This document shows positions 38,629 through 42,304 of a DNA stretch of 64,000 nucleotides, in pieces. A program made the translations under genes and the position numbers. Position 1 is the first letter of the stretch. Each line of letters opens with the position of its first letter. The DNA is from an uncultured bacterium (GTDB lineage Bacteria > Bacillota > Clostridia > Lachnospirales > Lachnospiraceae), in NCBI GenBank assembly GCA_947073545.1, contig CAMTMP010000001.1, positions 62,001-126,000 on the forward strand. The letters are read 5' to 3'. The notes beneath the pieces are model-generated. The model did no database searches. It saw nothing but the letters and a program-made list of their open reading frames with translations, and was not told the origin of the DNA.

Positions 38629-38991
38629 ATGGCATTTATGAGAAATAAAGATTGGAGGCAATATATGATAGCATTGACTGAGGATGAGAAAAGGATGGTC
38701 TTTCAGCTGGAGGGCTGCCGCCGATATGATGTGATACAGGAGATTGCTGTGTTGTGTCGGTATACCCGTGACCATGACAAAAAGGATGTGGCAGAAAATC
38801 TCTTAAAGAAGCTGCGTGAACTTTCGGAGGATGACTGCAGAGAGCTGATCTGTGATGTTCAGAGAAATTATCACTCGCCATGGAAAGCAAGAACCGTTGG
38901 GGAGATGATCGCTGTGGCCCGGCAGGAATCGGCGCCCGGAAACTGGAAGGGCATGATATTATGGCACTGGAACGCTTTGATCCGGAAGTAA
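38629..38991 (+). CDS. hypothetical protein
   Basis: Intact ORF in the same collinear operon. Confidence 0.5.
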   Translation: MAFMRNKDWRQYMIALTEDEKRMVFQLEGCRRYDVIQEIAVLCRYTRDHDKKDVAENLLKKLRELSEDDCRELICDVQRNYHSPWKARTVGEMIAVARQESAPGNWKGMILWHWNALIRK

Positions 38992-39188
38992 AGCATATGA
39001 TTGTGTTTGATGTACTCTCAGGAGAATCCCCGATAGGGGATAAAGGGAGCCGGATGAGGCTGTTTCTGACAGATGAAGGTTATCGAAAGGCATTGGAAAA
39101 TCAAAAACAGCAATATATACATATCAGGAACCATGCCAAAGTAATATCAGGAAATCTTCAATATGATTATCCTGCTGAGGATTTATAA
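38961..39188 (+). CDS. hypothetical protein
   Basis: MALERFDPEVKHMIVFDVLSGESPIGDKGSRMRLFLTDEGYRKALENQ; overlaps the previous stop. Confidence 0.5.
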   Translation: MALERFDPEVKHMIVFDVLSGESPIGDKGSRMRLFLTDEGYRKALENQKQQYIHIRNHAKVISGNLQYDYPAEDL

Positions 39189-39368
39189 CCATTACCTGTT
39201 TTCTGCAAAGAGGCAGCTATAATTATATGGCTGCTTCTTTGACTTTCCAAACAAGTATGTTATGGGCAATAGTAACTCACAAAAATCACGAATTTCACAT
39301 AAAAATATGGTAAAATGCAGGGAAATAGATTATACTGTATATAGCTTTACAATTAGGAGGAAGCACCG

Positions 39369-40484
39369 ATGAGATCCCCAATGGATGAAAACACGTTTAT
39401 GAATTTTTACAAAAACACCGTTCTTGGATATTCTAATAACCTGCAACGGCACATATGCAGGTCATTAGAGGAGCAGCACCGCATTACTTTTGAGGAACAA
39501 AGAAACTTACTGGATCCTGATAAAATCATATATTTTGAATCAAAAAAAGACTTACGGGGTATCCTTTCCCAGACAACTACAAACAAAGATTTCATCGGTT
39601 TTTATGAACACTGGGAATTTGTAAAGCTGTATAAATATTCCGTACCTTTGTTTTATCAGACAGATTCTTCTGAGAGTTTGATAGATATCCTTACAAAATG
39701 CGGAATTACTGAATTTAAGGAGGTATCGTTTGCACCCGAATTTATACTTAATACTTCCCTTCAAGATGCAAAACCTATTTATTTAGCAGAGCAGGATCGG
39801 ATATTTATTAAATTTATACTGCAGAAGACTTATTTTACATCTGATGCGTTTGAACAGACTGATTATCGGTATCCTATTGTATTATATTTTGATCTTCCGA
39901 ACCACTGCCTGGAGATACGCTATGATGCTATTAAATATACAGAGGCGTTTGATAGTGAAATTTACGAAAAGCTAGTGGCCAGCTGTATTGATTGGATAAA
40001 AAAGGAATTAGGTCTTTCTTTATATACATGTGAACATACAGATGCTATAAAAATTGTCAATGATAAACAAAATGAAGATGTAAAAATGTATAAGCAGATG
40101 ATGCAGATGAGTTCCGGAGGTGCCGCAGAACTGACTGCGGCAGAAGGTTCTGATTATGTATTACCTTTCATCGGTGAAATTCGAGAGCTTATTGATGAAA
40201 ACGAGGACTTATTTAATGAGGCTACAGAAATCAAACAATTATTAACGCAATACTTAAATGATAAAGAAGCGACAGCCAGTTATCCTTACATATATGTAAA
40301 ATGGGTAAAACCTGTAGAATCACAAAGTTACATAGTTAAAATAACTTTTGATTACCTGAGCCGTAGATACACTTTATTGCAACACATCACTGGAGGTTGT
40401 AAAGATTTAGGAATGGAGCGAATGAATGATGCAATCAAATATCTTTGCGAAAGCGGTTCCTTTGTTAAAGGAGAAAAAATTTAA
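39369..40484 (+). CDS. unknown protein, first gene of putative three-gene defence operon
   Basis: Intact 371-aa ORF preceded by AGGAGG-like SD (ttaggaggaagcaccgATG); AT-rich relative to flanking ICE genes. Confidence 0.65.
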   Translation: MRSPMDENTFMNFYKNTVLGYSNNLQRHICRSLEEQHRITFEEQRNLLDPDKIIYFESKKDLRGILSQTTTNKDFIGFYEHWEFVKLYKYSVPLFYQTDSSESLIDILTKCGITEFKEVSFAPEFILNTSLQDAKPIYLAEQDRIFIKFILQKTYFTSDAFEQTDYRYPIVLYFDLPNHCLEIRYDAIKYTEAFDSEIYEKLVASCIDWIKKELGLSLYTCEHTDAIKIVNDKQNEDVKMYKQMMQMSSGGAAELTAAEGSDYVLPFIGEIRELIDENEDLFNEATEIKQLLTQYLNDKEATASYPYIYVKWVKPVESQSYIVKITFDYLSRRYTLLQHITGGCKDLGMERMNDAIKYLCESGSFVKGEKI

Positions 40485-40788
40485 TATAGATTATGATGCA
40501 TTAGCTGAATTTCTTGAACGTTACAAGCAAAATGATTGGTTGTATCCAGATGCAATGCACCGTAATCTAAAAATCAGCATAAAAACCATTTATGAGATTT
40601 TAGAATTATGCGTCGAAATCGGGGTGTTGGATCAGTATCTACAGATATACTGTCCACATTGCCAAAAGTATACTGGCCAATATTATAAGACCATTGCAGA
40701 AATACCAGAAGAAATCAGCTGTCTGCATTGTGATTATGAAATACTGAACCCCTTAAACCACGCAATAATCATCTATAAGGTTTTATAA
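40426..40788 (+). CDS. winged-helix plus zinc-ribbon protein, second gene of putative defence operon
   Basis: LEFLERYKQNDWLYPDAMHRNLKISIKTIYEILELCVEIGVL (wHTH-like) and CPHC-x(n)-CLHC zinc ribbon; overlaps upstream and abuts downstream gene. Confidence 0.65.
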   Translation: MMQSNIFAKAVPLLKEKKFNIDYDALAEFLERYKQNDWLYPDAMHRNLKISIKTIYEILELCVEIGVLDQYLQIYCPHCQKYTGQYYKTIAEIPEEISCLHCDYEILNPLNHAIIIYKVL

Positions 40789-41499
40789 ATGGTAAACGAA
40801 TCTGAATTTGTAAAGAAATCAGAAGCCTTTCTGAATGATATCGGGATGACACCAACAGAATGGCTGCTGGCAATGGGAAAATATAATTCTCGCATTTTGC
40901 AGCTTGATAATACAGGCTATAAGAAATTCGCTGAGCTTTATGAAAAAATAGTCAGCAAAGACTTCAAGCTGAGCGATAAGGGAAAATTATTAGAGGACTT
41001 GTCAGCGATACTATTTTATCAAGGCTATCCAGGAATATTAGAGTGCCGGAGAAATCTTCGTACCAGCAGTAATGAGATTGATTTACAACTCTGCTGGACG
41101 GAAAATGCAAAAATGGCGGGAATAGATCGTGCTTTTCCGTTTTTGGAAGAATCTTTTTTGTGTGAATGCAAAAATTATAAAAAAAGCGTTGATGTAACAT
41201 ATGTTGGGAAGTTTTTTTCATTGCTCCATGTTGCTCGCTGTAAAACCGGTATCATGATTGCCTGGAACGGCATAGCAGGGCGTTCTAAATGGAGTGATGC
41301 AAATGGCCTGATCCGAAAAATTGCTTTAAGGGATAACACATATATTATTCCTATTGGAAAAGACGATTTTAAATCAATTTATGAGCAAAAAACTAATATT
41401 TTTTCTATTATACGGGATAAATATTTAGCATTACAAAACGAAATTGATTATTCTGAATATGTCCAGCATCATGAACTTGAATCAGATTTCAAAAAATAA
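40789..41499 (+). CDS. PD-(D/E)XK (Mrr-like) nuclease, third gene of putative defence operon
   Basis: SNEIDLQLCW...FLCECKNYKKSVDVTYVGKFFSLLHVARCKTGIMIAWNG: D-x(n)-E-x-K with downstream helix typical of Mrr-like restriction endonucleases. Confidence 0.7.
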   Translation: MVNESEFVKKSEAFLNDIGMTPTEWLLAMGKYNSRILQLDNTGYKKFAELYEKIVSKDFKLSDKGKLLEDLSAILFYQGYPGILECRRNLRTSSNEIDLQLCWTENAKMAGIDRAFPFLEESFLCECKNYKKSVDVTYVGKFFSLLHVARCKTGIMIAWNGIAGRSKWSDANGLIRKIALRDNTYIIPIGKDDFKSIYEQKTNIFSIIRDKYLALQNEIDYSEYVQHHELESDFKK

Positions 41500-41643
41500 T
41501 ATAGTTTTTTTAACCTTACCAGTTTATTGATTTACAGTGTAGTTAAATAGATACTGTCTAAGGATATGGGAGACTCGTTTAATGACAGACAGAGCTAATA
41601 AGCCGGGTCATTTTACCTGTCTCTTTTTTTGCTTTTATTTTCT

Positions 41644-41719
41644 GGCACAAAATTGGCACAATCCCGCACGAAATTGGCACGGTTCTGCTCTTTCCCCGTA
41701 AATAGAGATATGCTACACT
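41644..41719 (+). promoter_or_regulatory. ICE operon promoter with four phased GGCAC-type repeats and extended -10
   Basis: GGCAC at 41644, 41655, (cGCAC) 41665, 41676; 30-bp block 41673-41702 identical to 59791-59820; extended -10 TGCTACACT. Confidence 0.7.
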
Positions 41720-41763
41720 AAATATGCTTAAAACTGTATCCAGAAGCAATCCGGGCTGGCACG

Positions 41764-41790
41764 GCACCTTTCCTGAGAGGTGCTTTTTTT
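41764..41790 (+). terminator. intrinsic terminator in the operon leader (attenuator candidate)
   Basis: GCACCT-TTCCTGAG-AGGTGC-TTTTTTT, about 45 nt after the -10. Confidence 0.7.
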
Positions 41791-41844
41791 GCGCCTTTCA
41801 CCGCAATCCAGATTTTCTCACCCCTTCAGCCCGGAGGAAAGACA

Positions 41845-41874
41845 GCCATGCCCATCTGCGGCATGGCCTTTTCT
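41845..41874 (+). terminator. second leader hairpin
   Basis: GCCATGCC-CATCTGC-GGCATGGC followed by CTTTTCTTT. Confidence 0.5.
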
Positions 41875-41911
41875 TTCCACCACCAAATCTTATTTAAAGG
41901 AGGTCCAAACA

Positions 41912-42304
41912 TTGAGACTGAAAAACAAACTGCAGACGCCTGCCACGGCAGGAAAGAAACCAAAACCCAGGTTCTCCCCCACAAAGGCAGCTTATTATGC
42001 CTTCCTCAGTTCCATGATGTTCCTGATGTTTACCCAGCCGGCCTATGCCGCAGATGTATGGACAAAAGCCACGGAGATCATGAAGGATGTCTATAACCAG
42101 ATCGTGCTTATCTCTACCGTTGCCGCTATTGTCACAGCTTCCGTTGCCCTGCTGATGATGAACTTCTCCCGCTCCGGCCGCACGGTGGATGAGAGCCGCG
42201 CATGGCTGAAGCGTATCTGCATCACCTGGGCGATCTTAAATGGGCTTGGCTTCATCATGGCCTACATCACCCCGTTCTTTGCGGACGGCAAGTGGAACGG
42301 CTGA
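41912..42304 (+). CDS. small membrane protein, VirB2/TrbC pilin-like
   Basis: TTG start after AAAGGAGG; FTQPAYAADVWTKATEIMKDVYNQIVLISTVAAIVTASVALLMMNFSRSGRTVDESRAWLKRICITWAILNGLGFI. Confidence 0.6.
   Translation: MRLKNKLQTPATAGKKPKPRFSPTKAAYYAFLSSMMFLMFTQPAYAADVWTKATEIMKDVYNQIVLISTVAAIVTASVALLMMNFSRSGRTVDESRAWLKRICITWAILNGLGFIMAYITPFFADGKWNG

Follow-up and report, generated by a model that had tools for sequence, protein, structure and literature searches.

A three-gene locus in an ICE cargo gap

The window, meaning the whole 64,000-nucleotide stretch of DNA that was analysed, carries three open reading frames on the + strand within positions 39369-41499, encoding proteins of 371, 120 and 236 amino acids (Table 1). 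The original prediction had described three tightly packed genes on one strand, AT-rich against GC-rich flanks, and this observation is confirmed: the G+C fraction of the trio is 0.34-0.37 (about 35%), compared with 0.44-0.52 upstream and 0.53-0.61 downstream. Gene 2 directly abuts gene 3 as predicted, and the overlap of genes 1 and 2, given as 58 bp, measures 59 nt. Ratios of nonsynonymous to synonymous substitution (dN/dS) of 0.03-0.14 for genes 1-3, among relatives of about 85-98% identity and with the gene 1/gene 2 overlap left out, indicate that all three genes are real and under purifying selection; for gene 1 the range among close relatives is 0.03-0.08. No RNA element was found by an Rfam search of positions 38800-42000, and a promoter scan at the locus gave no more sites than shuffled sequences.

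Table 1. Features of the three-gene locus and its surroundings (positions in the window).
Feature	Position	Strand	Basis
Ribosome-binding site AGGAGG of gene 1	39355..39360	+	Read in the sequence, 8 nt ahead of the ATG
Gene 1, 371 aa protein of phrog_17559, proposed sensor/gate	39369..40484	+	ORF, PHROG match, dN/dS
Gene 2, 120 aa protein with winged helix and CxxC...CxxC ribbon	40426..40788	+	ORF, AlphaFold2 model, profile matches
Predicted winged-helix core of gene 2, residues 23-64	40492..40617	+	Modelled helices 23-30, 41-48 and 52-64, then strand 68-75
Zinc-ribbon-like segment of gene 2, C76/C79/C99/C102	40651..40740	+	Four Cys kept in the relatives read, Staphylococcus phage version excepted
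Gene 3, 236 aa Mrr-like PD-(D/E)XK nuclease, proposed effector	40789..41499	+	Pfam PF04471 Mrr_cat, phrog_18586
Catalytic stretch of gene 3, K64-G65...E69...N95-E96-I97-D98...E126-C127-K128-N129	40978..41175	+	Alignment of ten sequences; motif in all intact loci
ICE cargo gap holding the trio, DUF5720 to first transfer-operon gene	39189..41779	.	Absent in related ICEs L053-L055

The trio was thought to be inserted between the early genes of an ICE and its transfer operon, and comparison with three related ICEs (L053-L055) agrees: in each of them the upstream orf184 runs straight into orf174, leaving the cargo gap empty. Upstream of the trio in the window are a weak TTRAP-like match and a DUF5720 gene, and since L053-L055 lack these as well, the segment that varies extends a little beyond the trio. 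In another related ICE (L056:3-2435), the stretch upstream of the transfer operon encodes a protein of nSTAND6 type, matched at E=1.1e-4 and so short of the Pfam cut-off.

Gene 1, in which no motif had been recognised originally, matches no family of Pfam, NCBIfam or PADLOC; its sole match is to phrog_17559, an unnamed phage family of unassigned function (E=1.4e-16, residues 6-359). Its predicted model is poor (pLDDT 55) and has no Foldseek match below E=0.001. Because of the low confidence of the query model, no fold is claimed for gene 1, and similarities to CENP-N (E=1e-3, TM 0.23) and RdgC (E=0.06, TM 0.22) were discarded. The role of sensor proposed for gene 1 is a guess.

The combination of a winged-helix region and a zinc ribbon predicted for gene 2 appears in a confident AlphaFold2 model (pLDDT 89), in which a winged helix precedes a ribbon of four cysteines (CPHC at residues 76-79 and CLHC at residues 99-102). 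Profile matches are to proteins of the winged helix-turn-helix (wHTH) type (eS25, LrpC and MarR-type), and the top Foldseek matches of the model, none of them below E=0.001, are winged helices of Fur, MarR-like proteins and CodY, which are consistent with a winged-helix fold and assign the protein to no family. The only match in PADLOC-DB 2.0.0 (2023) is Cas2 at E=0.057, and a search of genes 2 and 3 for the Mrr_N domain gave no match at E<=1. The ribbon is not universal: gene 2 of Staphylococcus phage Henu2 is homologous by profile comparison (E=2.5e-7) but has lost the cysteines, so the zinc ribbon is dispensable to the design of the system.

For gene 3, the PD-(D/E)XK signature that had been noted (NEID at residues 95-98, ECKN at 126-129) holds up at the level of sequence. 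The protein exceeds the cut-off for the Pfam Mrr catalytic domain (PF04471 Mrr_cat, E=1.7e-5, 25.4 bits against a cut-off of 21) and matches phrog_18586 (E=2.3e-22) as well as phrog_6350. Across ten sequences, down to 23% identity, residues G65, E69, I97, D98, E126, C127, K128 and N129 are invariant, and the putative catalytic residues E-(E/Q)ID-ECKN are kept in every intact relative that was read, as would be expected of an active nuclease of this superfamily. The Mrr_cat match together with invariant E69, D98, E126 and K128 places gene 3 among catalytic domains of the Mrr type; a profile search against solved structures returned coiled-coil noise only.

Linkage of the three genes across carriers

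Conserved co-occurrence of the three genes had been set as a test of the original prediction, and they do travel together. Near copies are present on six genome contigs, all six with the trio, and the linkage of genes 1, 2 and 3 extends over loci L001-L006, L010, L019, L020, L024 and L025 and the Staphylococcus phages. Wherever a relative of gene 1 was found, genes 2 and 3 lie beside it in unchanged order, with a few broken copies among them. A profile search with gene 1 through 397 genomes of the family yielded four new loci, in each of which genes 2 and 3 follow gene 1 directly; one locus retains the gene order at only 22-34% identity. Two of the four (L066 and L067, from the same genus) are near copies of each other, so the four represent three lineages. 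The distant carriers comprise a viral contig with phage-type genes upstream (L010), a recombinase-bearing element (L024), prophages (L025 and L029) and genome contigs (L019 and L020). The overlap of genes 1 and 2 is kept in three clades, at 59, 56 and 86 nt.

Damage was seen at several of these loci. Gene 3 of the prophage copy L010 (7418-8134) is frameshifted over three frames next to open genes 1 and 2. In gene 1 of L019 (3988-5076) a TAA codon interrupts the reading frame, genes 2 and 3 remaining open, and the match to gene 1 in L006 is divided between two frames. L029 has a truncated gene 3, and L067 a gene 1 that lacks the usual N-terminus. Between the window locus (39369-41499) and L002:1240-3373, synonymous divergence (dS) is 0.11 for gene 1, which is near-identical, and 2.1 for gene 3, near saturation, a contrast that suggests recombination that swapped the nuclease.

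Genes 1 and 3 are present in seven Staphylococcus phage records (Henu2, SAP71, vB_Q2 and others), and gene 1 of Henu2 is homologous to that of the window (hhalign E=1e-18). In the annotated records of Henu2 and SAP71 the trio sits between the endolysin and the integrase, the most diversified region and one that usually holds accessory genes (PMC12323379). Matches to gene 3 also occur in two Coprococcus phage records, in one of which, NatCom_10489 (L042), a single protein of 345 amino acids, encoded beside the terminase genes, combines genes 2 and 3; the same fusion is present in a bacterial genome (G126, locus L021). Profile comparison shows these fusions to be homologous to both proteins (E=7e-11 for the gene 2 part and E=4e-20 for the gene 3 part). 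Such natural fusions directly support a partnership of genes 2 and 3, and support the earlier reading of gene 2 as an adaptor to the nuclease. The first gene of the fused subtype was considered as a homologue of gene 1 and dropped, the similarity not being significant.

Recognised defence genes often lie near the trio. In L002, L004, L005 and L006 it is followed by a two-gene cargo, located in the same ICE gap in L002, L004 and L006; this cargo in L002, the locus covered by the profile scan, matches Olokun (OloB E=1e-77, OloA E=1e-16); the pairs of L004-L006 are close copies of it by reading. The Lamassu genes LmuA and LmuB adjoin the trio in L005 and L024, and the fusion in L021 has AbiGii and a KAP-type NTPase (PDC-S49) as neighbours. 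No recognised defence neighbour was found at L019, L066/L067 or L068.

Other partners of the nuclease module were found as well. A nuclease like gene 3 is encoded directly behind a TIR/CAP12-like protein on an Agrobacterium plasmid (L011:5133-6456) and directly behind a deoxyribosyltransferase-like protein on a Sphingomonas plasmid (L012:5057-6465); these are possibly other defence pairs. In Halorussus and several Firmicutes the Mrr-type module is joined to different N-terminal regions, and four loci (L022, L032, L037 and L038) have single ORFs of about 530-570 amino acids in which an uncharacterised N-terminus of about 400 amino acids is fused to this Mrr-type nuclease.

A probable mobile nuclease system and its alternatives

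Because the trio travels as a unit on mobile elements and phages, often beside anti-virus genes, it is probably an unnamed anti-virus system, and the interpretation offered by the original prediction is supported. The reading that we favour, and hold to be likely, is that of a mobile single-operon nuclease system, resembling a split Mrr enzyme and gated by gene 1, that defends its host or its carrier element against phages or competing mobile DNA. The defence activity is something we infer from the neighbourhood and the mobility of the genes. In the proposed mechanism, gene 1 would come first in translation, with the conserved long overlap coupling it to gene 2, and would sense or gate, holding the nuclease inactive until a sign of infection serves as trigger. 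Gene 2, through its winged helix and zinc ribbon, would bind nucleic acid and direct the nuclease of gene 3 to the DNA of an invading phage or plasmid, the two proteins together acting as a split Mrr enzyme. The nuclease may then cut only the DNA of the invader, amounting to restriction, or that of the whole cell, amounting to suicide; substrate, trigger, role of gene 1 and outcome are the parts of this scheme that we infer.

An addiction module is an improbable alternative, in which gene 3 would be toxic and held in check by gene 1 or gene 2, stabilisation of the element being the primary function and phage defence secondary. Such a module would be in keeping with co-translated overlapping genes carried by ICEs and temperate phages, and the nuclease motif of gene 3 would suit a toxin. 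Toxin-antitoxin pairs, however, rarely show a three-gene order in which the nuclease is fused to a protein of the DNA-binding type, and the stopped gene 1 of L019 beside an open nuclease gene is unexpected if gene 1 is the antitoxin. It is very unlikely that the trio serves its carrier directly, in ICE transfer or regulation or in the processing of phage DNA. The location in the window between ICE early genes and transfer operon would agree with this, as would the large terminase gene beside it in one Coprococcus phage, but the trio is also found at differing sites on unrelated phages and at places in the chromosome where ICE genes are absent. Empty sites in related ICEs and the presence of unrelated carriers, phages among them, largely refute a carrier function and are the grounds for rejecting a role in ICE transfer.

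We give equally little credence to a selfish element of the homing type, whose nuclease would spread its own operon by cutting empty sites. A nuclease operon in many unrelated places is what homing would produce, but the insertion contexts vary (after an endolysin, beside a terminase, in an ICE cargo gap, in the chromosome), and homing enzymes are not known to have Mrr-type catalytic domains.

A broader form of the favoured defence reading, to which we would give even odds, is that Firmicute ICEs and temperate phages share an unnamed three-protein immune system in which gene 1, as a sensor of a new type with no known fold, gates a split Mrr nuclease, and that the nuclease module of this system has been re-used with other partners, such as TIR-like or deoxyribosyltransferase-like proteins. 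If the defence reading is true, the trio is a compact, portable system against mobile genetic elements that occupies accessory-gene slots of ICEs and temperate phages, including phages of Staphylococcus aureus; it would account for three 'hypothetical proteins' annotated in phages such as Henu2 and SAP71, and would provide a directly testable example of a nuclease that is separated from its DNA-binding half and placed under the control of a third protein.

Comparison with known systems

The original prediction could not match this combination of genes to a named system, and the searches made here concur. Genes 1 and 3 have no match in PADLOC-DB 2.0.0 (2023), nor do gene 1 and gene 3 of the Staphylococcus phages, gene 1 of the Coprococcus phage or the L021 fusion; the trio matches no named system in NCBIfam; and no description of it was found in the open literature on Mrr, zinc ribbons, three-gene systems and Staphylococcus prophage defence. 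The novelty of the trio is provisional, the comparison covering PADLOC systems to 2023 by profile and newer ones by text search.

The closest likeness is to the type IV enzyme Mrr. Gene 3 belongs to the same catalytic family (Mrr_cat, PF04471), and a winged helix is paired with the catalytic unit in both. The domain order of Mrr is a wHTH followed by the nuclease, and this is also the order of the single polypeptides of L021 and L042. No methyltransferase was found by a Pfam scan of the eight genes flanking the trio in the window, as for a type IV enzyme, and none is annotated beside the trio in the Staphylococcus phages. In contrast to Mrr, in which Mrr_N is fused to the catalytic domain, the trio usually has its winged helix and its nuclease as separate genes, its gene 2 bears a zinc ribbon and no Mrr_N match, and it possesses an additional conserved protein, gene 1.

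Direct profile matches to phrog_17559 (gene 1) and to phrog_18586 and phrog_6350 (gene 3) mean that proteins of the trio had already been clustered earlier; these PHROG families are functionally unassigned, and nothing was found that describes them as defence or as members of a three-gene unit. Lamassu, Olokun and AbiGii share neighbourhoods with the trio and are neighbours only, as the trio proteins match none of their models. A parallel in lifestyle is offered by Tha (PMC11087260), a HEPN-domain defence protein from Staphylococcus aureus prophages that is switched on by tail proteins: temperate staphylococcal phages carry it, as Henu2 and SAP71 carry the trio.
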